Of a stretch of DNA of 64,000 nt, positions 7,660 through 22,484 are shown in pieces. The translations under genes were made by a program, and so were the position numbers. How positions within the stretch are numbered: the stretch's first letter is position 1; the number at the start of each line of letters is the position of its first letter. This stretch comes from Saprospiraceae bacterium (GTDB lineage Bacteria > Bacteroidota > Bacteroidia > Chitinophagales > Saprospiraceae). The DNA lies in the NCBI GenBank assembly GCA_013001975.1, contig JABDKX010000140.1, forward strand, positions 1 to 64,000, given 5' to 3'. The notes beneath the pieces are model-generated. The model made no database searches. It worked only from the letters and a program-made list of their open reading frames with translations, and had not been told where the DNA came from.

Positions 7660-8088
7660 ACGAAAAAGAATACTTTTTTTAAAAACGTCAGTCTATTAAT
7701 GGTTTTTAGTTTTATAACCCTTGGACTGCAATAATCCGCTGATGCTCAATTGACCATTAGAAATTTATCAGGTTGTGATCTTTGGGTATATGCAGGTGAA
7801 GCACAAGCACCATGTTCACTGTGTAATGTAACAACTACTATTTCAGTGCCCGCGAATACGCAAGTAGTTATTAACGCGGACCCAAATTGTGCTCCAGAAT
7901 ACTGGAAAGGATTTGTGTATAGTACTTCTCCATTTTTCCCATCAGGATCTGGTTATGCCTACAATCCGATTCCAATAGGATCATGTAATGCTGGATTTAA
8001 TACAGGAACAAATTGTGGAAGCGGGACGATAAATGCGACTTGGGTCAGTGCCGGTGGTGGCGGAGCTCAACAAGCTTACATACAGTAG
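7660..8088 (+). pseudogene. Small cysteine-containing secreted protein gene with disrupted signal peptide (mature domain intact, 7750..8088)
   Basis: The listed ORF starts at TTG 7750, but the same frame upstream reads T(acg)KKNTFFKNVSLLMVFSFITLGLQ-TAA(7732-7734)-SADAQLTIRN, a signal peptide with an in-frame stop and ACG where ATG is expected. Confidence 0.6.
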
Positions 8089-8150
8089 ACATATCAGACA
8101 CGAAGTCTATCAATAAATAACATTTTTACTTGAGCAAATAAAGTTTGGCT

Positions 8151-8189
8151 CTTAACAAGACAGTTCTAATTCTTAATTGTCTTGTTAAG
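8151..8189. terminator. Stable hairpin, possible terminator, between the secreted-protein pseudogene and dinB-like gene
   Basis: 12-bp perfect inverted repeat CTTAACAAGACA…TGTCTTGTTAAG; no clear T-tract follows. Confidence 0.4.
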
Positions 8190-8268
8190 GCTAAATTTAT
8201 GTTTTATTAATCCTCTAAATCAGTTTGCTTTTCTAATCTATTTGTGACTTTGACTAACAACCCTTAAT

Positions 8269-8811
8269 TTGTCTTTGACTAAAGACAAAATTATGACCGA
8301 AAGACAACTATGGGTTGATCATATTTTCAATTTAGATATTCATCCAGGATGGGCTCAGAATATCATGAGTAGAATCGAAGACTGCCCTCTCAGGCTCTCC
8401 AATATTATCAAAGGACTTTCTGACTATGAGCTATCAAAGAATATTGATGGAGCCTATAGTATAAAAGAACACATTGGCCACCTTATAGATTTAGAATCTC
8501 TTTGGATAAATCGGTTTGATCAATTTGAAAAAGGCCTTCCAGAATTGGTTCATGCAGATATGTCAAACCAAAAAACAAAAGAAGCCAATCACAACGAATC
8601 GAATATCGACAATTTGTTAGAAAAATTCAAACACGAAAGGGACCAACTAATTTCAACTTTCAAAAACTTGAGTGAAAAAGCTTTGAACCACAAATCTCTT
8701 CACCCTAGATTAAAGGTCATTATGCAACCAGTTGATTTACTATTTTTTGTTGCAGAACACGATGATCATCATATCACATCAATGAAATTATTAGCAAATG
8801 AGAAGGATTAA
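8269..8811 (+). CDS. DinB-like family protein
   Basis: YSIKEHIGHLIDLESLWINRF and AEHDDHHITSM metal-binding His pattern of the DinB/YfiT superfamily. Confidence 0.8.
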   Translation: MSLTKDKIMTERQLWVDHIFNLDIHPGWAQNIMSRIEDCPLRLSNIIKGLSDYELSKNIDGAYSIKEHIGHLIDLESLWINRFDQFEKGLPELVHADMSNQKTKEANHNESNIDNLLEKFKHERDQLISTFKNLSEKALNHKSLHPRLKVIMQPVDLLFFVAEHDDHHITSMKLLANEKD

Positions 8812-8897
8812 TTTTGTTATAAATGAACTTTAAGCTAATCATAAACTATCAGTAATAATTTATAAAATATCTTTTACCTTTATGAAAAATATAAGCA

Positions 8898-11132
8898 TTG
8901 ATTAAGATATTAAAGGTCATTATTCTTACTGCAATTATCTCTTCTTTTTTTACCTGCACAAGTGATTCTGGAAATGTGGAAAAAACAGAAGATTATAATC
9001 CAAACAAAGTTATGGCGGAGACTTTACTTGCTCTTCATAACGATATCAATTTTATGAATTCATTATATGAGAATTCTGATAGAGCGGACTATCTTCTTGC
9101 TCAACCACAATCGGGAAATTTAATGAATAATTTAAAAATAAAAATGAGAGCAGGATATGAACTCATGAATTCTAATAAAAACGAACAAGCTTTAGAAGTT
9201 TTCAATGAAATTGAAAAAGAATTAGAAACATTAAATACAAATCAGGGAGGACGATATCGGCTTTTAAAATTAAGAGCAGTCAATTATTTTAGAATGGGAG
9301 AATTAGAAAACTGTATTAATAATCACAATGAAGATTCTTGCATTTTACCATTTAATGACAACAGCTTTCATAGAGTTAAAACTGGAAGTCAAGCAGCTAT
9401 AGATGATATTTTGGAATTGCTGAAAATGAAAAGTGATAAAAACTATATCTGGCTTCTAAATTTAGCTTATATGACGCTTGGACAATATCCTGATAATGTT
9501 CCACCAGAATACTTGGTACCTCTATATCCAAAAGAAGAACCTAATTTAGTTGAACCATTTATTAACATAGGTTCAACAATTGGTGTGGATGATAATAAAT
9601 TAAGTGGTGGCAGTATTATAGATGATTTTACTGGCGATGGTTACTACGATATTATTTCTAGCTCGTGGAGTTTGGCAGATCAGATTTTCTTCTACGTAAA
9701 CAATGGAGACGGAAGTTTTACGGAATCCCACAAAAAAGCAGGATTAGAAGGCATCACAGGAGGCTTAAATATTACACATACAGATTATAACAATGATGGT
9801 CATTTGGATTTCATGATCTTAAGAGGCGCTTGGCTCCAAGAAGGGCAATATCCTAATTCTCTATTAAGAAATAATGGTGATGGTACTTTCAGGGATGTTA
9901 CGGTAGAGTCAGAAATATTATCCAAAAATCCAACACTGGCTGCAGCATGGGCTGATTTTAATAATGATGGATTTCTAGATTGCTTTGTAGCTAATGAATC
10001 CTTTAAAGATGCACCACCTAATCCATGTGAACTTTTTATAAATCTGAAAAATGGTAAATTTAAAAACATAGCCCCTGATGTAAATAGCAATATCTCAGGA
10101 CTTTTTAAAGGTGTAACTATTGGAGATATTGATAATGACTTGGATCAAGATATTTATATTTCCAATTTAAAAGGTCCCAATATTTTATTGCGAAATGATG
10201 CTACAGAAAGCGTATATGGATTCTCATTTACTGATGTATCTCAATCTAGTAAAACATCTGGAAACGAACAAAGCTTTCCATGCTGGTTTTTCGACTATGA
10301 CAACGACGGATGGTTAGATATTTTTTCAGCCAGTTATTCTTGGGATTTCTCTAACAACATGGCAAAAGAATATTTAAATGAAATGGCTGGTGATCCTTCT
10401 GGCGCCGCACCTCCTGCTTTATATAAAAATAACAAAAAAGGATCATTCTCTAATGTCTCAAAAAATATAGGCCTAGACAAAATATGTTTTGCAATGGGTG
10501 CAGGATTTGGAGATTTTGATAATGATGGATTTCAAGACATTTATCTGGGTACTGGGGAACCTGATTTTAAAGCTGTCATTCCGAACAGGGCCTTTAAAAA
10601 TGAAAATGGCGTTGAATTTAAAGAAGTAACATCACAATCACGATTGGGACATTTACAAAAAGGCCATGGCATTTCTTTTGCAGATCTTGATTTTGATGGA
10701 GACCAAGACATTTACGCCGTAATGGGCGGTGCCTTTGAAGGTGATAATTTTTTCAACGCGCTTTTTGAAAATACGAATAATTCTAATAATTGGATAAAGA
10801 TAAAACTACAAGGTGTACAATCAAACAGACCGGCGATTGGCGCCAGATTAGAATTGGTAGTTTCAACTAATAATTCACATCGGAGTATCCATCGGTTTGT
10901 AAGCAACGGATCTAGCTTTGGAGAGAATCCATTTACACAAGAGATTGGTTTTTTAATTAATGAAACTATAGATAAGCTAAATATTATTTGGCCCTCAGGA
11001 CAACAAAGTACGTTTTCAAACCTTCAATCCAACAAATACTATTTAATCACAGAAGATCAACTAACCCCACAGGAATTAAACCACACTACAACTAAATTTA
11101 AAAAGGATAAAAACCATCACCACCAACATTAA
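8898..11132 (+). CDS. CRTAC1-like FG-GAP/VCBS repeat lipoprotein with ASPIC/UnbV C-terminal domain
   Basis: Lipobox SFFTCTS; multiple D-x-D/N-x-DG repeats (DYNNDGHLDFM, DFNNDGFLDCF, DFDNDGFQDIY); C-terminal AIGARLELV…INWPSGQ-like segment (NIIWPSGQQSTF). Confidence 0.88.
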   Translation: MIKILKVIILTAIISSFFTCTSDSGNVEKTEDYNPNKVMAETLLALHNDINFMNSLYENSDRADYLLAQPQSGNLMNNLKIKMRAGYELMNSNKNEQALEVFNEIEKELETLNTNQGGRYRLLKLRAVNYFRMGELENCINNHNEDSCILPFNDNSFHRVKTGSQAAIDDILELLKMKSDKNYIWLLNLAYMTLGQYPDNVPPEYLVPLYPKEEPNLVEPFINIGSTIGVDDNKLSGGSIIDDFTGDGYYDIISSSWSLADQIFFYVNNGDGSFTESHKKAGLEGITGGLNITHTDYNNDGHLDFMILRGAWLQEGQYPNSLLRNNGDGTFRDVTVESEILSKNPTLAAAWADFNNDGFLDCFVANESFKDAPPNPCELFINLKNGKFKNIAPDVNSNISGLFKGVTIGDIDNDLDQDIYISNLKGPNILLRNDATESVYGFSFTDVSQSSKTSGNEQSFPCWFFDYDNDGWLDIFSASYSWDFSNNMAKEYLNEMAGDPSGAAPPALYKNNKKGSFSNVSKNIGLDKICFAMGAGFGDFDNDGFQDIYLGTGEPDFKAVIPNRAFKNENGVEFKEVTSQSRLGHLQKGHGISFADLDFDGDQDIYAVMGGAFEGDNFFNALFENTNNSNNWIKIKLQGVQSNRPAIGARLELVVSTNNSHRSIHRFVSNGSSFGENPFTQEIGFLINETIDKLNIIWPSGQQSTFSNLQSNKYYLITEDQLTPQELNHTTTKFKKDKNHHHQH

Positions 11133-11146
11133 TTAAATTTAATCTT

Positions 11147-11668
11147 ATGGTGTTTAATAGTTTTAATATATCACAATCAACATTAGATGATTTAGATGTG
11201 GCTTGTTGGTTGTATCAGGATGCAATCAAATATCAAAAAGAAAAAGGCTTCCCATTATACAAAACAGATGACAGACATAATCAGGAAAGACATATCAAAA
11301 ATGGTTGTCATTTTAAAGTGACTTCAAATAATAAAATCATAGCCATTTTTAATATCCAACATCAAGATCCCCTTGTTTGGGGTATCAGAGATAAAGGAGA
11401 TGCATTTTACTTACATGGCGTCTTAGTTCATTCTCAATTTAAAGGAAAAAAAATATTTAAATTTATTCTTGATTGGGTTATTAATTATGCCAAATCTAAC
11501 AATCGTCAAATAATCAGATTGGATACTTGGGCAGACAATCCTCCTTTGGAAAATTATTATAAAAAACATGAATTTAAAGTCATCGGACATGTACATATTC
11601 CTGATGCTGAGGAAATATCTCCGAATTGTAGGAATAACCGTGTCGTATTAATGGAATACACGATATAA
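11147..11668 (+). CDS. GNAT-family N-acetyltransferase
   Basis: AFYLHGVLVHSQFKGKKIFKFILDWVINYA and RLDTWADNPPLENYYKKHEFKVIG. Confidence 0.82.
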   Translation: MVFNSFNISQSTLDDLDVACWLYQDAIKYQKEKGFPLYKTDDRHNQERHIKNGCHFKVTSNNKIIAIFNIQHQDPLVWGIRDKGDAFYLHGVLVHSQFKGKKIFKFILDWVINYAKSNNRQIIRLDTWADNPPLENYYKKHEFKVIGHVHIPDAEEISPNCRNNRVVLMEYTI

Positions 11669-11771
11669 ATTTTAACCAAGACAATCTATTTGGTCTAAAT
11701 TCTTTTGAATCAATAATAAAGTTCGACGGGCGATTATCTAAAGAAGCTAAGTTAAAAGCACTCAAATAAAA

Positions 11772-11799
11772 AAAGAAGGCAAATGATTTTACCTTCTTT
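11772..11799 (-). terminator. Intrinsic terminator for the TPR gene (minus strand)
   Basis: Inverted repeat AAAGAAGG…CCTTCTTT; on the minus strand it is followed by TTTTTTTATTT. Confidence 0.65.
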
Positions 11800-11833
11800 A
11801 AACGTTCAAAATAACAAAAAAACCCTTTTATTT

Positions 11834-13069
11834 TTATATCTTATTTAAGGCCAATAACTCTGGATATTTAGCATTGGTCACATTTGCCTGCTTCAAGTAT
11901 GTTTGAGCAATATCTTTATCACCTATCTCATCATAAATTTTCGCAAGCATCAAATTCACATCAATGTTTTTTGGTCTCTTATCATATTCCAATTGAGCAT
12001 ATGAAAGCGCTGATCTCGGATCATCTAGGAGTTCTAAATACAGATCAGCAAATTCCAAATTCATATTATGCCCACTGTCTGTATCTTCTTTCAGCATCAC
12101 TTTAATTTCTTGTACCAATGAATTCATCTCATTTACTCTATTTTCTTTTTTATATAAATGTGCCAAAGAAATATAGAAGCCTACTTCTGGAATAATATCC
12201 ATAGCTTTTTTTAATTCTTTTTCTGAAAGTTGATTTTTACCTTGCTCCATTAACACATCACCAATGGCACCGACAGCAAATGGATAATTTGGTCGTGTCT
12301 CTAGAATGGATTCATAGATCATTTTTGCCGTATCCAAGGCGCCATATCTTTGATAGATTTCTCCAAGTGTTAACATAGCCCATGCTGTTTCTTCTAATCC
12401 CGGAAAACCAGCCTGTACAGCCATGTTCATAGCTTGTTTTGCACCTTTGACATCGCCATGAATTTCTCTTAAATAAGAAGCTCTACTATACGATCTGATA
12501 TCTGGTTTGATTGTCAACATTCTATCTGTAAGCGCAATTGCTTTTTCATAATTACCCATTTCTACATTGGCATCTATCAATACACCATGAATTTGAGCAT
12601 TCGTAGGATTAAGTAAAGCTGCTTGATTTCCTGTAGTCAAAGCATCTTGAAAATCATGCAAGGAAAGTTGAACACCCGCTTTTGTTGTCATGGCTAGAAA
12701 AGTTAAATCATCATCTATGGATTCATTATTAATAGCATCATCTAAAACTTCCAATGCAGATGGATAATAATGGCCATGTTCGCCAGTTACACGTGCTTCC
12801 TTTATATAAAGTTGTGCCAATAAGATTTTAGACTTATTGTCGTCAACATCATTTTTTATAGCATTTTTATAACTTGCATATTGATTTTGAACTTCATCCC
12901 ATTCTTTTCCCATCTGAATCTTTTCCCCTCTTTGAAGTAAATCGCCAACAGAAATGCTTGAAGTTGAATGATTTGCATCTTTTTGTCCTTTAAAAGCCAA
13001 AAATGCGACTATAACAATAGCTGAAAAACATATACTAAATATGTAAATTAATTTTTTAGATGAAAACAT
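11834..13069 (-). CDS. Tetratricopeptide repeat protein, membrane anchored
   Basis: N-terminal TM; repeated TPR helices (…YEKAIALTDRMLTIKPDIRSYSRASYLREIHGD…). Confidence 0.85.
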   Translation of the reverse strand: MFSSKKLIYIFSICFSAIVIVAFLAFKGQKDANHSTSSISVGDLLQRGEKIQMGKEWDEVQNQYASYKNAIKNDVDDNKSKILLAQLYIKEARVTGEHGHYYPSALEVLDDAINNESIDDDLTFLAMTTKAGVQLSLHDFQDALTTGNQAALLNPTNAQIHGVLIDANVEMGNYEKAIALTDRMLTIKPDIRSYSRASYLREIHGDVKGAKQAMNMAVQAGFPGLEETAWAMLTLGEIYQRYGALDTAKMIYESILETRPNYPFAVGAIGDVLMEQGKNQLSEKELKKAMDIIPEVGFYISLAHLYKKENRVNEMNSLVQEIKVMLKEDTDSGHNMNLEFADLYLELLDDPRSALSYAQLEYDKRPKNIDVNLMLAKIYDEIGDKDIAQTYLKQANVTNAKYPELLALNKI

Positions 13070-13180
13070 AATATAATTTTTAAAATTTTAGGAATATGAG
13101 CAGTTCTCCTACTCTATTTTAAACTACGAGAGTTAAAGTCGTTTTGGATTTATAAAGTCTTATTTTTTTTAAAATAAAAA

Positions 13181-13206
13181 GGAGGCTGCTTCTGTAAGCA
13201 ACCTCC
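13181..13206 (-). terminator. Intrinsic terminator for the long DUF4331 gene (minus strand)
   Basis: GGAGGcTGCTT-ctgt-AAGCAaCCTCC stem; minus strand continues with TTTTTATTTT. Confidence 0.7.
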
Positions 13207-13248
13207 AGTCCCTAAAAATTAAATTACTATCTAAAATTAATTTACTTT

Positions 13249-16200
13249 TTAATCAATCTTCGAAAACCTAATTGTTTGCGATGATTTCGAATTTCCAATA
13301 GTTAGTAGGTAAACACCTGTCTCTAAAGTCGAAACATCTATTGAACTAAGTGATTTTCTTAATCTATTTTGCATTATCAATCTTCCTGATACATCAGTAA
13401 GTGTCATATTTAAAGCTTCATTTGCTTCAAATAATTCATCTAATTCAACATAAAGTCGATCACTTGCTGGATTTGGATAAACAGTTAAACTTGAAACTTC
13501 AAGATTAACATCCTCAACATTAACCGTTCCCGTTTTCATATTATCAAAAAATATCGCTGAAACGCCTGCTTGTAATCTGTCAAATACAGGACGGGCATTG
13601 TCGGATGCATCAAAACTAAATCCAAGTACTTTACCACCTTCCTTGGCTCTTTCTGCAACATAAATCATTTTCGTATTTTCATCTATAGCTACATCAACTG
13701 GATTTCCTAATTCTGTAGCATCTCCTCCAATTCTTACTTGCTCAGCAAATGATATCATTCCATCATCAATCTTAGAACTGAAAGCAGAAATTTTCACAAT
13801 TCCGCCATCACTATCTGATGATGCTTCACCAATATCAGTTAAGATCATCATATCAGATGATTTGTCATATGTCAAGCCATGCGTTCTTACCAATCCTTCT
13901 ACTGTAACTTCAACGTCTGGTGTTATCAAACCTTCAGGTTGACCATAGAAATTATTCATGATAGCCAATCTATTGGTATTATCCATTATGGCATACAACG
14001 CATCTTCTTCTGCATGAATACCCCATAAATTAAATTGAGTAGTAAATGATTTTTCTAACATGATTTGCTCTCCATTCAATCTGTATACAAACAACATGTT
14101 CATCATTCCATTGGCATCATTTGCATCTTGAGCAACTACCAATCTATCATCTATAACGGCTATTTCTCTACCATTGATAAAGTCAGAAGTTGACGAACCG
14201 ATATATCTTAAAGATGAACCATTATCAATACTGTCCTTTACACTTCCATAAATATTTACAACATTATTGGTTCTGTCTAATTCATACAATAAGTCATTTG
14301 TAAAATCATAATGTATACCATCAGAATCCATAGCTTGACCTTCAAGATTGACTCTTCCAATTGATCTGTCCTCTCGTACTTGATAGACTCCTATCTCATT
14401 ACTTGTATTTGATGAAGTATAAAATTGTGCAAGATTATTTAATACAACTTCTTCTTCATTATAGTCAGAATAAAATACAGCAGAAGCTCCTGCGAATAAT
14501 CTACTATAACTTGGATTGGCATCACCATTCATTGAATTTAATGGGAATCCCAAAATTCTACCACCACCGTTAGCTCTTTCTGCTACGTAAATTGTTTCTG
14601 TTAAATTATCAAATGCCACATCAACAGGATTTCCAAGAAGTGTACTATTACCTTCAATTCTAATTTGTTCTGATTCAGAAATCACATCATCTGATATAGC
14701 ACTTTCAAAATCATTCACGATGATAACAGCGCCATCATCTGCACTACTTGCTTCACCAACATCAGTTAAAATCATCAGGCCATTATTATCAATGGTTAAA
14801 CCATGTGTTCTGACCATGTTTTCAATTGATATTGTTTTAGAAGGTATTGCATCTGATCCTGTATTGCTTAAAAAGTTTTCGAAAACAACTAAGTTTTCAG
14901 AATTATCTTCTATAGCAAACAATGAAGATCCTACAAACTGTATTCCCCATAAATTTATTGGAGATGAATATTCTGTTGAATAAGTTATTCGATTCGGTGA
15001 TATATCATACACAACAAATTTGTTGGTCATTCCATTAGCATCATTTGCATCTTGTGCGACAACTAATTTGTCAGCGCGTACTGCAATTTCACGTCCATTT
15101 ATAAAATCAGAACTTGAAGTAGCTGTTAATGATGCTGATGTTCCAGAATTTACAGAAGCTAAAACTTTATCATAAGCATTGATAACATTGTTTGATCTGT
15201 TTAATTGGTAAATAACATCATTTTGACTATCGTAATGTACACCATCAGCATCCATCGCTGCTACATCAATTAAATTTAACTTGATATCTCTTGTGTTATC
15301 AGTATTCAATACACCTAACTGTCCTGTAGTATTTGAAGAAATAAACAATGAACTTTCGGAATCTGGACTTTCTGGTGTTCCTTCATATATCTCTCCACTA
15401 CAATCACCTGTTCCACTAAATGGCATAGCTACATAAGGAAAAGAATTTCTAAATGGCTTATCATTTGCTTCAACTCCAGTTGTATAAGTTAATACGCCTA
15501 ATAAATCATCCGTCACAGGACTAGCTGAAGTATTAGGATCATAATCATCATACCATAATCCAATGGCAGCCAAAACAACACCAGAAACTGCCTGTAATTC
15601 AATTCGTGTTACGTCATCTTCAAGTCTTCTTCCATTTGGAAAACCATCCATATTTGGAATAAATTCTAAGTCTGCAGTTGTATTAAAAGGAGCTACCGTT
15701 AAGCCAATAGCTGCTGCTTGCACCAATCCTAATGAACTATAATTTGCATCATCTCTTGGTGTCGGAGGTACCGCCATATTTAATCTCAACATATCACCAC
15801 CATTAGGTAAAAAGTTATTTATAAATGGCTTTCCTGCTGCAACAGGATTTCCACCTTTACCAGTAGCTAATTGATAAGGAATAGCATTTGGAACACCTGT
15901 ATGAAATATAGGCCATAAATCTACAGACCTTGGTTTCCCAGGTATCAAAAGTAGGTCACCGAAAGTTTCAAAAGCAGTTCCAGTTAAATCCCCACCTTTA
16001 AGCGCACTAACGCCATCAGCACCATTTGTAAAATCAAATGCACCTAATGAAGCTTCTTGAATTCTCAATGCTGAAAATGCAGGTACTGCGCCACCAAATA
16101 GATCATCATCCATATATAATGCTAATTCAGGATTATAAAAGAATTCATCCATTTCTGTCTCAGCTAATTCATCATAAGGCGTAATAGAATTCCAAAAATC

Positions 16201-17109
16201 TTTATACCCGATTGGAATAACGGCTTCATTAGTCAAAGGCATACCTAGTCTCGAAACTTGTACCCAGTCACCTGAATACGAAGGATTTGCATCCGAGCTT
16301 AATGTTGTCATTGAAGGTCTTGAAGCTGATGCCCAAACACCTATTACATAATCTGGGTCTAAAATATCAGAAGGTGTTGATGATGCTCCACTCTTTAAAA
16401 GTGTTGAAATCGGTACTTGAATAGCCAATGTACTTACATTGTAACAAGCTACCCCATCTCTAGGGTTTCCATTCTGTCTAGAAGCATCTCCCAGATCAAA
16501 AATACCACCAAGGTCAACAAAGAAAGGATCATCAGTTGGACCGGCAAAAACAGTTTCTCCTGTTGATGCTGTCGTAATGGCATTTCCCCATATTTCAGCG
16601 TAATCTCCACCTAATCCAGCGCCTCCGCCTATACTTCTTTCACCAATATTATTGGGAGGTACAATACCATTACTTATAATAGTTTCAAATGTTACACCAC
16701 CATCCAGACTTCTTTCTAAAGTATAAGTGGCTTTTTGATTTTGCTTACCTAATCGTATATTAAAAAACGTTGTTGGATCTTCGTTTTCAAGATTAAAGGT
16801 AAAACGATAAGTTACTTCATCGCCAACAACACTAGCATCATTGTCTACATGAATCTCATACCTTATGTTTTCTCCAAACGTATAATAGTTAGGTCCTCCA
16901 TGAGGTAATTGAAAAGGAATATAAGTGGCTATTAATGTAACCGTATTTGGATTATCTGGACTTCTAAATGCATAGACATCCACATTGTCAGCCAAGGGGT
17001 CATTAGAAATCAATGGCGCTTCTCTATGACTAGAGGCAAATGTTGTGATTGCTGTTATGGTCATCAAAACCATTGTCAGCAAAATATTTTTTATGTTAAA
17101 ATTTTTCAT
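13249..17109 (-). CDS. DUF4331 family protein with two internal propeller-like repeats and type A T9SS sorting domain
   Basis: SSHREAPLISNDPLADNVDVYAFRSPDNPNTVTLIATYIP (DUF4331 N-terminus); two ~300-aa homologous units; C-terminal LTVYPNPASDRLYVELD…TGVYLLTI…SKID. Confidence 0.9.
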   Translation of the reverse strand: MKNFNIKNILLTMVLMTITAITTFASSHREAPLISNDPLADNVDVYAFRSPDNPNTVTLIATYIPFQLPHGGPNYYTFGENIRYEIHVDNDASVVGDEVTYRFTFNLENEDPTTFFNIRLGKQNQKATYTLERSLDGGVTFETIISNGIVPPNNIGERSIGGGAGLGGDYAEIWGNAITTASTGETVFAGPTDDPFFVDLGGIFDLGDASRQNGNPRDGVACYNVSTLAIQVPISTLLKSGASSTPSDILDPDYVIGVWASASRPSMTTLSSDANPSYSGDWVQVSRLGMPLTNEAVIPIGYKDFWNSITPYDELAETEMDEFFYNPELALYMDDDLFGGAVPAFSALRIQEASLGAFDFTNGADGVSALKGGDLTGTAFETFGDLLLIPGKPRSVDLWPIFHTGVPNAIPYQLATGKGGNPVAAGKPFINNFLPNGGDMLRLNMAVPPTPRDDANYSSLGLVQAAAIGLTVAPFNTTADLEFIPNMDGFPNGRRLEDDVTRIELQAVSGVVLAAIGLWYDDYDPNTSASPVTDDLLGVLTYTTGVEANDKPFRNSFPYVAMPFSGTGDCSGEIYEGTPESPDSESSLFISSNTTGQLGVLNTDNTRDIKLNLIDVAAMDADGVHYDSQNDVIYQLNRSNNVINAYDKVLASVNSGTSASLTATSSSDFINGREIAVRADKLVVAQDANDANGMTNKFVVYDISPNRITYSTEYSSPINLWGIQFVGSSLFAIEDNSENLVVFENFLSNTGSDAIPSKTISIENMVRTHGLTIDNNGLMILTDVGEASSADDGAVIIVNDFESAISDDVISESEQIRIEGNSTLLGNPVDVAFDNLTETIYVAERANGGGRILGFPLNSMNGDANPSYSRLFAGASAVFYSDYNEEEVVLNNLAQFYTSSNTSNEIGVYQVREDRSIGRVNLEGQAMDSDGIHYDFTNDLLYELDRTNNVVNIYGSVKDSIDNGSSLRYIGSSTSDFINGREIAVIDDRLVVAQDANDANGMMNMLFVYRLNGEQIMLEKSFTTQFNLWGIHAEEDALYAIMDNTNRLAIMNNFYGQPEGLITPDVEVTVEGLVRTHGLTYDKSSDMMILTDIGEASSDSDGGIVKISAFSSKIDDGMISFAEQVRIGGDATELGNPVDVAIDENTKMIYVAERAKEGGKVLGFSFDASDNARPVFDRLQAGVSAIFFDNMKTGTVNVEDVNLEVSSLTVYPNPASDRLYVELDELFEANEALNMTLTDVSGRLIMQNRLRKSLSSIDVSTLETGVYLLTIGNSKSSQTIRFSKID

Positions 17110-17139
17110 GTTTTTCTTTTTAATTGTGTAAATAAATAA

Positions 17140-18837
17140 TTACTCTACTTCTGTTCCACGCCAAGGAGTAGCGACATATGGAAAAGAATTTCTAAAAGGT
17201 TTATCATTAGAATCTACACCTGTTGAATACGTTAATACACCTAATAAATCATCGGTAACTGGACTTGGCGAACTATTAGGATCATAGTCATCATACCACA
17301 AACCAATGGCTGCTAAGACAACACCTGAAACAGCTTGAAGCTCAATTCTTGTCACATCGTCTTCTAATCTTCTGCCATTTGGAAATCCATCCATATTCGG
17401 AATAAATTCTAAGTTTGCATTAGTATTAAAAGGCGCGGCAGTTAATCCTATCGCAGCAGCTTGTACCAATCCTAATGGACTAAAAAATTCGCTGTCTCTT
17501 GAAGTTGGTGGCACTGCCATATTTAATCTTAACATGTCACCACCGTTAGGTAAAAAGTTATTTATAAATGGCTTACCCATTGCTAATGGATTACCTGCTT
17601 TTCCTGTAGCTAATTGGTACGGAATTGCATTAGGCACACCTGTATGGAAAATAGGCCACAGATCTACAGAACGTGGTTTTCCTGGAATTAATAATAAATC
17701 ACCAAACGCTTCGAAGGCAGTTCCTGATAAATCAGTGCCTTTAAGTCCACTTACACCGTCAGCACCATTTCTAAAATCAAAGGCTCCTAATGAAGCTGTT
17801 TGAATTCTCAAAGCTGATAATGAAGGAACAGCTGTTCCAAATTGGCTGTCATCCATATATAAAGCCAATTCAGGATTATAAAAATACTCGTCCCATGTTG
17901 TCTCTGAAATTTCAGCATATGGTGACATTCTGTTCCAAGCGTCCTTATCTCCAATTGGTATTACGGCCTCATTGGTTAAAGGCATTCCAATTCGTGAAAC
18001 TTGAATCCAATCTCCACTATAACTTATTTCTCCATCAGCTCCTAATGTTTTCATAGCTGGTCTTGATGCAGATGCCCAAACACCAATAACATAATCAGGA
18101 TCTAGAATATTCGTTGGTGTTGTTGAAGCACCAGTCTTTAATAAAGTCAAAATAGGCACTTGAATCGCTATTGTATGTACATTATACTTAGCCAAACCAT
18201 CTCTTGATGGTCCATTTTGTCTTGGTGCGTCTCCTAAATCGAAAACAGAACCTAAGTCAACAAAGAAAGGATCATCAATCGGTCCAGCAAATACTTTTTC
18301 ACCTGTGCTGGCATTAGTAATGGCATTTGTAAATAACGTTGGATAGTCTGAATTCATTCCAACACCACTTTCAATAGACCTAGGTCCAATATTATTAGGT
18401 GGTACGACCCCATCAGTAATGATTGTTATAAATGTTGCTCCTCCATCAGTACTTCTTTCTAAAGTATAAGTCGTTTTTAAGTTTTGCTTTCCTAAGCGAA
18501 TATTAAAAAACGTTGTAGGGTCTTCATTAACTTGGTTAAATGTAAACCTATAAGTTACTTCATCACCTGGAACACTGGCATCGTTATCCACATGGATTTC
18601 ATACCTAATATTTTCTCCAAATGTGTAATAATTGGGACCTCCAAATGGTAATTCCCCTGGGATATAATTTGCAATAATCGTAATTGTGTTTGGGTTATCC
18701 GGACTTCTAAAAGCATACAAGTCTGTATTATCAGCCAAAGGGTCATTGGCGATTAGCGGCGCCTCTCGATGTGAAGAAGCATTTAAAAATGCGGTCACAG
18801 TAAATAAAAATGAGAGTAAAAAAATTGCTTTCCTCAT
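17140..18837 (-). CDS. DUF4331 family protein (paralogue lacking the C-terminal extension)
   Basis: 565 aa; strongly similar along its length to the N-terminal ~560 aa of the 13249..17109 product. Confidence 0.9.
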   Translation of the reverse strand: MRKAIFLLSFLFTVTAFLNASSHREAPLIANDPLADNTDLYAFRSPDNPNTITIIANYIPGELPFGGPNYYTFGENIRYEIHVDNDASVPGDEVTYRFTFNQVNEDPTTFFNIRLGKQNLKTTYTLERSTDGGATFITIITDGVVPPNNIGPRSIESGVGMNSDYPTLFTNAITNASTGEKVFAGPIDDPFFVDLGSVFDLGDAPRQNGPSRDGLAKYNVHTIAIQVPILTLLKTGASTTPTNILDPDYVIGVWASASRPAMKTLGADGEISYSGDWIQVSRIGMPLTNEAVIPIGDKDAWNRMSPYAEISETTWDEYFYNPELALYMDDSQFGTAVPSLSALRIQTASLGAFDFRNGADGVSGLKGTDLSGTAFEAFGDLLLIPGKPRSVDLWPIFHTGVPNAIPYQLATGKAGNPLAMGKPFINNFLPNGGDMLRLNMAVPPTSRDSEFFSPLGLVQAAAIGLTAAPFNTNANLEFIPNMDGFPNGRRLEDDVTRIELQAVSGVVLAAIGLWYDDYDPNSSPSPVTDDLLGVLTYSTGVDSNDKPFRNSFPYVATPWRGTEVE

Positions 18838-18942
18838 AGTTCGTAATTAATTTAATTTTTAAAAATTGCTAAAAGCTCATGCTTTAGCTACAATATTAAT
18901 TACGAGAGACTATTTGATTTTGGATTTATTAAGTAAGAATTA

Positions 18943-19725
18943 TTATACGTTGACTGTTCCTATCAGTCGTGTGAGCGTAGGTACTTGACTACCGCCAGCT
19001 TGCTCAATTGTAATAGCATACGTTTTTGTTCCTTCTTCAAAATCTAAAGGAATAAAAATTTCACCTTCCAAAGTAAAGACATTCATTGGAATAGGATTTT
19101 GACCGTCTTTTAAAGACCAAAGTTGAAATGCTTGATCTCTATTGATAGTAGGCAATTCATTAACTTGAAGGAAATTCCTTCGTGTATTTGGGTTGGAATG
19201 TAAAATCAATTTCGTATTGGAATAATTATCAGTTGGTGTAATTTCCAACGAATTATTATCGGGATTATTTAAAAATTCTAATACTGACAGCTTTTCATTT
19301 TGTGCATTAACAGTTGAGTCACAGTCGCTTTGGTAAACGGCATACTCATTTTGTATCTCTTTAATTTGATTGTCTTTTTGAAAAGCAAACCAAAGTGCAC
19401 CAACACTAACCAAGCCTAAAATTCCAGTTAAAAATTTAAACAAGTTTGAAGAGGATCCAGATTTGCCACCACCTCCTTTATTTATTTTATTGGCCGAATT
19501 TTCGTTAATGTAATTCGTAATATCATTACTTAACCCTTTTCTAGGTATGATATTTTGTGACTGGGCATACGATTGCATTGCTGCTTGGATCTCCAAGTAG
19601 TCTTTTTGCAACTCAGGAAATTGAATCAAATATTTTTCTACCTGACTTCTCTCTTCTTTAGAAAGAATATCAAGTACATAATATTCAATTAAACCTGATT
19701 CTCGTATGTCTTTTACAGTTTCCAA
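18943..19725 (-). CDS. Anti-sigma factor, RskA/anti-sigma-K-like
   Basis: N-terminal anti-sigma helices (IEYYVLDILSKEERSQVEKYL), single TM, C-terminal RskA-like segment (LPTINRDQAFQLWSLKDGQNPIPMNVFTLEG). Overlaps the sigma gene by 13 bp. Confidence 0.87.
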   Translation of the reverse strand: METVKDIRESGLIEYYVLDILSKEERSQVEKYLIQFPELQKDYLEIQAAMQSYAQSQNIIPRKGLSNDITNYINENSANKINKGGGGKSGSSSNLFKFLTGILGLVSVGALWFAFQKDNQIKEIQNEYAVYQSDCDSTVNAQNEKLSVLEFLNNPDNNSLEITPTDNYSNTKLILHSNPNTRRNFLQVNELPTINRDQAFQLWSLKDGQNPIPMNVFTLEGEIFIPLDFEEGTKTYAITIEQAGGSQVPTLTRLIGTVNV

Positions 19726-20306
19726 AAATTAAATAATAATGTTAATAATAACAATGACAAAAATCCCAAAAATATTTTCTGTTCTTTCGACAATGTGTTT
19801 CTTAATATCGCAATGCCTTTTTTTACTCTGGTTTTGATAGTTCCTAATGGAATATCCAACTCATCAGACAATTGCTGTTGCGAATAACCTCTCATATATA
19901 AATAATCGATTACTATCGCATATTTATCATCCAAATGTTCTAAAAGATTCTTTACATCTATTGAATCTTCATTAATTTGCGATGTTCCTACCTTATGTAC
20001 GAGTGGATCTAAAGTATCAGATGTGTTCTCTACATGAAAAGATTTCAACCTACTGATATCAATGGCTGTGTTGCGCACAATTCTTGACATCCAAGTAAAT
20101 AAAGTTGATTTCTGTGCGTTGAATTGCCCGATGTTATCCCATATCTTTAAGAATGATTTTTGAATGGCATCTTCGCTGTGATCATGATTTCTCAATACTT
20201 TAAAGGCAAACCCATAAAGAGAGTTCAAATAGTTGTCATACAATAGTTGCAACCCACCTTGGTCTCTTCTGAGAATCTTGTCATGTATTTGTTGATCGAG
20301 TTGCAA
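19713..20306 (-). CDS. ECF RNA polymerase sigma factor with hydrophobic C-terminal tail
   Basis: Sigma-70 region 2 (HSEDAIQKSFLKIWDNIGQFNAQKSTLFTWMSRIVRNTAIDISR) and region 4 (YMRGYSQQQLSDELDIPLGTIKTRVKKGIAILR); ends FLGFLSLLLLTLLFNFWKL. Confidence 0.9.
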   Translation of the reverse strand: MQLDQQIHDKILRRDQGGLQLLYDNYLNSLYGFAFKVLRNHDHSEDAIQKSFLKIWDNIGQFNAQKSTLFTWMSRIVRNTAIDISRLKSFHVENTSDTLDPLVHKVGTSQINEDSIDVKNLLEHLDDKYAIVIDYLYMRGYSQQQLSDELDIPLGTIKTRVKKGIAILRNTLSKEQKIFLGFLSLLLLTLLFNFWKL

Positions 20307-20476: not shown

Positions 20477-21361
20477 TTGACAAAAATATTAATCATGGAT
20501 ATTATAAATGACCTAAAAGAACAATTTTGGATTTATTATGATTCAATTATAAGTTATATCCCACGTATAATTATAGCTACTATTATTAGCCTCATATTTC
20601 TGAGAGTTGTAAAAGCCATGCAAAAAAAACTTACAGCTTTTCTGACGCATAAAGCAGATGACCAATTACTCAATAATTTTATGAACAGCTTTCTTCCGAT
20701 ACTCAGCGGATTGATTGCCTTGCTCTTATTTTTATACATTGTTGGTTTGGGAGGTATAACCAAAAGTATCATGGGAACAGCTGGAGTTTCAGCAATCGTT
20801 ATAGGATTTGCATTCAAAGATATTGGAGAGAATTTTCTTGCCGGTGTCATGATGGCTTTCAACAGACCTTTCAGATTAGGAGATACTGTAAAATCAGGCG
20901 ATGTTGAAGGTAAAATAGTTGAATTAAGTTTGAGAGACACCCATATTAAAACTTTTGATGGTAAAGATGTATACGTACCTAATGGCCAAATTTTAAAAAA
21001 CCCTGTCTATAATTATACCATAGATGGATTTTTAAGACATCAGTTTTCGATTGGCATTGATTACGATTCTGATATCAAAGAAGCGCGTGACATTATAATG
21101 AACATATTAGAAAATGAACCAGGCATTATACAAGATGAAAAAAAACCAGCCACAATGATTGGTGAGTTGGGATCTAGTTCAATAAATATAACGTCCCAAT
21201 ACTGGATCAATACTTTTGATAGTAAATTTTCAGGCGTTGAAATCAAAACACAAGCCATTAAAAAATCACTTACAGCCTTGGAAAACGCAGGAATTAATAT
21301 GCCTGGTAACATTTTGGAACTAAAAAATTATAATCAAGTTCCAGTGAAACTAGAAAATTGA
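20477..21361 (+). CDS. MscS-family small-conductance mechanosensitive channel
   Basis: GTAGVSAIVIGFAFKDIGENFLAGVMMAFNRPFRLGDTVKSG pore helix and beta domain. Confidence 0.92.
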   Translation: MTKILIMDIINDLKEQFWIYYDSIISYIPRIIIATIISLIFLRVVKAMQKKLTAFLTHKADDQLLNNFMNSFLPILSGLIALLLFLYIVGLGGITKSIMGTAGVSAIVIGFAFKDIGENFLAGVMMAFNRPFRLGDTVKSGDVEGKIVELSLRDTHIKTFDGKDVYVPNGQILKNPVYNYTIDGFLRHQFSIGIDYDSDIKEARDIIMNILENEPGIIQDEKKPATMIGELGSSSINITSQYWINTFDSKFSGVEIKTQAIKKSLTALENAGINMPGNILELKNYNQVPVKLEN

Positions 21362-21431
21362 TAACTTCTCTTCAATTTAATTATTTTTTATCTACCTTTT
21401 AGTCAATAATTTATTTATTAAAATAATTTAA

Positions 21432-22484
21432 GTGCGTAAGAAAAAAAATATTGGTCTTCCTCCTGGTTCAATAATTTACACTGGTAAACTTACAGGTGAC
21501 CCCGTTCAGGTAAATTATATAGAATATAATCTGGAAACCTTTAGAGAAGATGACAACACTGATGGAAAAGGTGTCATTTTACACGCTTCAAATCCTACAA
21601 TCACACAGTGGTATGATGTCAGAGGGCTTCATGAGGAAAATCTCATTCAAAGTATCAGTGAAAGATTTCAAATGCACCCTATTGCCATCGAAGATGCTGT
21701 TGATGTCTTTCAAAGGCCAACCTTTACTGAGTATACTAACGGACTATTTTTTTCTCTAAAAGTATTGCGGTTCGACGCCGAAAAAAGCGAAGTAAAAAAG
21801 GAATCATTAGCTATCTATTTTGGTGATGGATTCGTTTTAAGTTTTCAAGAACTTGTTGATGACACTTTCAGTGAAGTTCGTAAAAGAATCACCTTTGACA
21901 GAGGAAGAATAAGAGGAAAAAGAGCAGACTATTTGGCGTATGCATTAATAGATTATACTGTCGATCAATATTATCATGTTATTGATCAATTAGAGAGTAA
22001 AGTTGAAGATTTAGAAGAAACGATTAGTCTTGATCCTGACCTTGTTAATAAAAATGAAATCTATAACTTAAAAAAACAAATATTAAAAATTCGTAAATCT
22101 GTTTCTCCAATACGAGAAGCCATTAATCTTTTTTCAAGATCAGAATCTAAACTTATTGATAAAAGTACTATTAATTATATCAGAGATGTTTATGATCATA
22201 CCATACATATCGTTGATAATATTGATTCTTTGAGAGATATTCTATCTGGACTATACGACCTCTACCTTTCGGAACTGAGTATGAAAATGAATAGGACTAT
22301 GCAGTTCTTAACCATCATCACTTCTATCTTTGTTCCTATATCTTTTTTAGCAGGCTTGTATGGAATGAATTTTGAATATATTCCTGAGCTTGGATATAAA
22401 TATGGCTATTTTATTTTATTGACCGCCATGGTTTTAATTGCTATTGTCATGTTGTTTATATTCAAGAAAAAAAATTGGCTTTAA
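21432..22484 (+). CDS. corA: CorA-family magnesium/cobalt transporter
   Basis: GTG start; C-terminal YGMNFEYIPELGYKYGY (GMN motif) plus two TMs. Confidence 0.93.
   Translation: MRKKKNIGLPPGSIIYTGKLTGDPVQVNYIEYNLETFREDDNTDGKGVILHASNPTITQWYDVRGLHEENLIQSISERFQMHPIAIEDAVDVFQRPTFTEYTNGLFFSLKVLRFDAEKSEVKKESLAIYFGDGFVLSFQELVDDTFSEVRKRITFDRGRIRGKRADYLAYALIDYTVDQYYHVIDQLESKVEDLEETISLDPDLVNKNEIYNLKKQILKIRKSVSPIREAINLFSRSESKLIDKSTINYIRDVYDHTIHIVDNIDSLRDILSGLYDLYLSELSMKMNRTMQFLTIITSIFVPISFLAGLYGMNFEYIPELGYKYGYFILLTAMVLIAIVMLFIFKKKNWL

Follow-up and report, generated by a model that had tools for sequence, protein, structure and literature searches.

DUF4331 genes beside a SigK-like ECF sigma factor in Saprospiraceae: a probably sigma-controlled, secreted system that may handle metals

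We argue that a five-gene locus in a Saprospiraceae bacterium may be best explained as an ECF-switched, secreted metal-handling system. We hold this reading as a whole with even confidence, and its parts differ in strength. An RskA-type anti-sigma factor would keep a SigK-like sigma factor at the membrane, perhaps with help from the sigma factor's own C-terminal helix. A signal that we infer to come from the envelope would release the sigma factor. The free sigma factor would then direct RNA polymerase to two promoters of the form TCCAAA-N11/12-CTCGTA, one driving a pair of DUF4331 genes and the other driving a TPR gene. It is highly likely that the ECF sigma factor encoded here controls both of these units. 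DUF4331 copy 1 would be exported, the T9SS would secrete copy 2, which would probably end up on display at the cell surface, and the TPR protein would be anchored in the envelope. Most likely, DUF4331 itself would acquire or buffer a transition metal by binding the metal (Ni, Co or Cu) or a chelate of it. The metal role is argued from association and we put it just short of an even chance. The gene content, the linkage, the motif, the ancient duplication and the secretion signals can all be read from the sequence.

The window is the whole 64,000-nucleotide stretch of contig JABDKX010000140.1 that was analysed, and the locus lies at 11834-20306 within it. All five open reading frames are on the minus strand. 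A preliminary description of this DNA gave their order as sigma, anti-sigma, short DUF4331, long DUF4331 and TPR, and the reading frames and Pfam agree with that. The sigma gene (19713..20306, 197 aa) and the anti-sigma gene (18943..19725, 260 aa) both have TTG starts, and the 13-bp overlap reported between them is borne out by the coordinates. Next come DUF4331 copy 1 (the short one, 17140..18837, 565 aa, with a signal peptide), DUF4331 copy 2 (the long one, 13249..17109, 1286 aa) and the TPR gene (11834..13069, 411 aa, Pfam TPR, with an N-terminal signal anchor at aa 7-25). The TPR gene is a conserved neighbour of DUF4331 in relatives.

Here DUF4331, a domain of unknown function, was found in four phyla. 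Both copies are full-length matches to PF14224 (436 bits for copy 1 and 431 bits for copy 2, with a cut-off of 27). Copy 2 consists of the DUF4331 domain (15421..17034), two propeller-like repeats of about 300 aa (13546..15354; 47% identical to each other, with a weak Lactonase match) and a T9SS C-terminal sorting domain (13273..13482; PF18962, Por_Secre_tail, at E 9e-13, and TIGR04183), all on the minus strand. The paralogy proposed for the two copies holds, with 80% identity over 561 aa. Copy 1 is closest to the copy 2 of its own locus in only 5 of 59 loci, which means the duplication is ancient. By their sequences the two copies are an ancient, specialised pair. The T9SS tail is present in 20 of 20 copy-2 relatives tested, and in only 8 of 53 sequences of a set that is mostly copy 1 with nine copy 2.

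The system is almost certainly exported, as judged from the signal peptides, the T9SS tail on copy 2 and the neighbours of DUF4331 in Rhodobacterales. On three Rhodobacterales plasmids (L224, L225 and L228) DUF4331 and a small gene adjoin a type II secretion cluster. The earlier suggestion of a regulated exported system draws support from all of these as well as from the conserved linkage and the shared motif described below. There is also a distant, split form of DUF4331, common in other Bacteroidota, whose halves are two adjacent genes of about 215 and 180 aa. A TPR gene adjoins the split form in L133 (385-1636) and L040 (18755-19987), and an RskA-type anti-sigma relative lies near it in several genomes. 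In the two cases examined, L133 and L135, the split form has its own TPR gene and there is a full-length DUF4331 gene on the same contig. L135 also encodes a 1819-aa fusion protein (7999-13455) that joins DUF4331 with three CHRD domains and a T9SS tail.

A PDB profile search found no solved DUF4331 structure. The AlphaFold model of the full domain has a pLDDT of 68 and a pTM of 0.75, and Foldseek found no significant fold match for it. Its top matches were weak, at E 0.1 or worse, and were set aside; they included a carbohydrate-binding protein, the ethylbenzene dehydrogenase gamma subunit and cellobiose dehydrogenase. The N-half of the split form modelled with a low pLDDT of 49. DUF4331 and PF14224 were not mentioned in the PMC full text searched, the locus had no match in PHROGs or Rfam, and no relative was found on viral contigs. 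With neither a solved structure nor a significant fold match, the metal-binding idea rests on context and on an N-terminal motif. The context is its association elsewhere with two kinds of partner, transporters of the HupE/NicO type and a TonB receptor. These transporter links, the possible N-terminus and the sigma tail discussed below all go beyond the preliminary description.

One argument is the N-terminal motif. In 137 of 137 intact DUF4331 proteins the predicted signal peptide ends in A, G or S just before a Ser-Ser-His-Arg-Glu-Ala-Pro stretch. The -1 and -3 residues before Ser-Ser-His fit signal peptidase I in all 137 relatives, the cleavage site being predicted by the -3/-1 rule alone. 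The mature N-terminus of copy 1 is therefore predicted, and probably is, Ser-Ser-His. NH2-Ser-Ser-His is an ATCUN pattern, and ATCUN sites bind Cu(II) and Ni(II). Cleavage before Ser-Ser-His would thus give a possible Cu/Ni-binding N-terminus. The Proteobacteria and Actinomycetota examined have the motif too, and Nostoc has Ser-Asp-His; in Lichenicola the start is annotated too far upstream for the N-terminus to be judged. When aligned, the split forms share this invariant His.

The other argument comes from gene neighbours. Elsewhere, DUF4331 and TPR genes have HupE/NicO (Ni/Co-type) transporter neighbours in four phyla. On annotated plasmids the order is ECF, RskA, DUF4331, Ig, TPR and HupE in Pseudoalteromonas, and DUF4331, TPR and NicO in both Streptomyces and Nostoc. 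Two other plasmids carry a gene of TPR-like length between DUF4331 and HupE. It is 426 aa with no Pfam hit in Lichenicola, and in Marinobacter it is 405 aa, assigned by length alone and preceded by a small gene. DUF4331 is followed by TPR on the plasmids of Miltoncostaea and Adhaeribacter, the latter with TonB receptors. Among 297 Bacteroidota genomes searched, 7 of the 39 that are DUF4331-positive have HupE about 3 kb or less downstream on the same strand. The second partner is a TonB receptor, found no more than 2.3 kb from DUF4331 in 11 family genomes. Across 199 family genomes it occurs in 54 of 71 DUF4331-positive and 40 of 128 DUF4331-negative genomes (p 1e-9). Its plug has a His/Met-rich stretch, VNMxSHAHGQGYADLHF.

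Like the HupE/UreJ and NicO loci, the locus here has TPR beside DUF4331, but it also differs from them. Its DUF4331 pair sits beside an ECF gene, and a search of the window genome for HupE_UreJ_2 alone gave no match. We reject HupE as a local partner there for this reason. The orthologue of the TonB receptor is on another contig (C56). Together with the lack of the motif before the sigma gene, these points count against the whole reading.

One can imagine a scenario where no metal is involved. The ECF sigma factor would then control a surface or envelope-stress module. Its DUF4331, propeller and TPR proteins would serve to build the cell surface or to protect it, and the HupE and TonB neighbours would belong only to a subset of lineages. 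The missing HupE_UreJ_2 match fits this scenario, and so do the secreted, modular nature of the regulated proteins (the propeller repeats, and the CHRD fusion in L135) and the type II secretion genes beside DUF4331 in Rhodobacterales. It is also in keeping with this scenario that, where DUF4331 is missing from a genome, this ECF pair and motif precede an unrelated exported lipoprotein. However, the scenario must set aside the recurrence of DUF4331 with HupE/NicO in four phyla, and a TonB receptor that both co-occurs and clusters with DUF4331. We consider it a serious alternative but a somewhat unlikely one.

The metal-handling reading and the surface scenario share the same proposed regulation. 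The cluster is not one transcription unit, because a strong terminator-like hairpin (13181..13206, minus strand; an 11-bp stem then a T-run, folding z -3.2) lies 3' of the DUF4331 operon and separates the long DUF4331 gene from the TPR gene. Another (11772..11799, minus strand; a 12-bp stem then a T-run, folding z -3.5) lies 3' of TPR. Each unit has a promoter-like motif, TCCAAAA-N9-CTCTCGTA, on the minus strand. P1 (18901..18924) ends 63 nt 5' of the start codon of the short DUF4331 gene, and P2 (13125..13148) ends 55 nt 5' of the TPR start codon. These are the only two exact matches in the 4.23-Mb genome. The preliminary description had proposed looking for a shared motif upstream of 18837 and 20306. 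It is there at 18837 and absent upstream of the sigma gene at 20306; the second copy is upstream of 13069. When upstream pairs of matching composition are drawn at random, 0.6% of trials give some 7+8 gapped word in common, and our argument relies on the rarity of the motif across the genome and its conservation in relatives rather than on that figure.

The conservation was examined in 79 related loci, scanning for TCCAAA-N11/12-CTCGTA with up to 2 mismatches. It precedes 45 of 84 first genes of the DUF4331/TPR block, 7 of 119 internal genes and 14 of 523 other genes. The p value of 2e-32 overstates the independence of these loci, which are related, yet the 11-12 bases between the boxes vary widely. 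In the counted sites TCC and CGTA hardly vary. The motif tracks the head gene whatever the gene order: it is before TPR where TPR precedes two DUF4331 genes, and before the first DUF4331 gene where TPR comes last. Some near relatives with the latter order have it before TPR as well. When the exact 12-base pattern was sought in 20 whole genomes, most other matches examined were inside long reading frames. Outside the Saprospiraceae an oriented scan found the motif at 2 of 28 DUF4331 loci, and this near-absence implies that it belongs to the sigma factor of that lineage. Common regulation had been an inference in the preliminary description. It is now strongly supported by a shared promoter-like motif at both transcription units and across relatives.

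It could still be that a different sigma factor or regulator binds the motif, and that the neighbouring ECF pair controls something else. Many ECF sigma factors are autoregulated, so a sigma gene without the motif upstream is a point for this idea, as is the presence of the motif at 22 of the 50 operon heads whose loci have no ECF gene close by. However, the motif resembles an ECF -35/-10 pair, and where there is a local ECF 33 of 34 heads carry it within 3 mismatches. Genomes without a local ECF nearly always hold an anti-sigma relative elsewhere; this is so in 19 of the 20 genomes where the DUF4331 locus that was retrieved had no such pair, some of these relatives being only weakly similar. 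Two genomes without DUF4331, G089 and G124, have the motif directly after the same ECF/anti-sigma genes. Binding by another regulator is improbable in light of this.

Since the same ECF pair and motif also occur where DUF4331 is missing, the regulon extends beyond the DUF4331 module. DUF4331 is probably one of several exported proteins under the control of the ECF sigma factor. In G124 a free propeller gene follows the ECF pair and lipoprotein. As a separate observation, the lipoprotein is exported, about 320 aa, lies beside the same ECF pair in L206 (2346-3317), L209 (448-1407) and L204 (2968-3759), and has the motif in front in L206 and L209. It belongs to no Pfam family and contains YxYxxHNGQTVPxAPY and TYHxHAHDxAD. 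Judged by eye, the free-standing gene of G124 (L209:1-378) is homologous to the propeller repeats of DUF4331 copy 2.

The linkage of DUF4331 with ECF/anti-sigma genes, on which the preliminary description depended, is conserved in the Saprospiraceae in several gene orders: collinear, divergent and with sigma downstream. An ECF-RskA-DUF4331-TPR-HupE arrangement recurs independently in Pseudoalteromonas. Up to 1.5 kb from the DUF4331/TPR core there are 14.1 anti-sigma genes per 100 kb, versus 0.5 per 100 kb at 4-10 kb, which makes them about 28-fold denser near the core. In the 199 family genomes an anti-sigma gene (E below 1e-14) is present in 61 of 71 DUF4331-positive genomes and 39 of 128 DUF4331-negative ones (Fisher p about 2e-14). 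The anti-sigma is within 1.5 kb of the core in only 26 of the 79 related loci, about a third, but a chance neighbourhood is hardly credible and is ruled out by the 28-fold proximity enrichment, the genome co-occurrence, the recurrence in Gammaproteobacteria and the shared motif.

The sigma factor itself is unusual. It has regions 2 and 4 and lacks region 3 (Pfam Sigma70_r2/r4). Its best PDB sequence match is SigK of M. tuberculosis (4nqw_A, E 4e-14), covering residues 10-172 of 197. Outside that match, and following region 4, is a hydrophobic tail of about 20 residues, a putative membrane anchor in the Kyte-Doolittle window (aa 177-195; 19722..19778, minus strand). We call the protein SigK-like rather than SigK since it does not end shortly after region 4, although such an ending is not a strict criterion of a SigK/RskA-type pair. 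The tail reaches the cut-off or more in 33 of 50 sigma factors paired with RskA-type anti-sigma relatives, a count that includes some duplicate loci, versus 0 of 24 other ECF-type sigma factors of the same genome. A smaller set, sigma factors beside DUF4331, has it in 13 of 32. The ratio of differences at codon positions 2 and 3 is 0.39 in the tail and 0.37 in the sigma body, so the tail evolves as constrained coding sequence.

The sigma factor may be tail-anchored in the membrane, a tentative proposal to which we give rather less than an even chance. There would then be an ECF clade in the Saprospiraceae that ends in a bare C-terminal transmembrane helix, has a separately encoded membrane anti-sigma factor and a release logic unlike the anti-sigma fusions described so far, and governs a widespread DUF4331 metal-handling module. 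If true, this would be an unusual regulatory design. Membrane-spanning extensions are known in IutY/ECF243, ECF48, ECF52 and ECF53, where the extension is a fused anti-sigma domain (PMC8999054). The likeness is that the sigma polypeptide bears a membrane segment, here a predicted one. The difference is that ours is a short bare tail with a separate anti-sigma gene. The tail is conserved: ECF sigma factors that have it, with separate RskA-type anti-sigma factors, were seen in the window (19722-19778) and in relatives L033-L111 and L166-L220.

Two known systems are worth comparing. SigK-RskA of M. tuberculosis supplies the closest solved structure, and it controls the exported proteins MPT70 and MPT83 (PMC7509140). 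The anti-sigma factor here likewise has RskA_C (45.5 bits against a cut-off of 29.4, E 1e-11) and a single predicted transmembrane helix (aa 95-113), and its system would also have exported targets. These targets would be DUF4331 and TPR proteins instead, and the sigma factor and many of its relatives have the hydrophobic tail. FecI/FecR/TonB cell-surface signalling also combines an ECF sigma factor, a membrane anti-sigma factor and a TonB receptor. However, Pfam reported RskA_C and no FecR domain in the anti-sigma factor. For the associated receptor, of which the one in relative L108 was tested, it reported CarboxypepD_reg and no signalling domain. We reject FecI/FecR-type signalling on this domain content.

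The function of DUF4331 is now directly testable. A candidate promoter and its regulator are at hand, together with a smallest set of partners (TPR, HupE/NicO and the TonB receptor) and a specific N-terminal metal-ligand hypothesis, and there are culturable relatives such as Portibacter, Neolewinella, Pseudoalteromonas and Streptomyces. The same genome has a second ECF/RskA-type pair on contig C47 (17571-18583), whose sigma tail is hydrophobic but weaker. On one side of the locus an FG-GAP/ASPIC_UnbV exported protein (8898-11132, plus strand) is convergent with the TPR gene and shows no signs of co-regulation. On the other side an MscS-type channel and CorA-like transporter gene (20477-22484, plus strand) lies divergent from sigma, and similar genes flank the clusters of some relatives.
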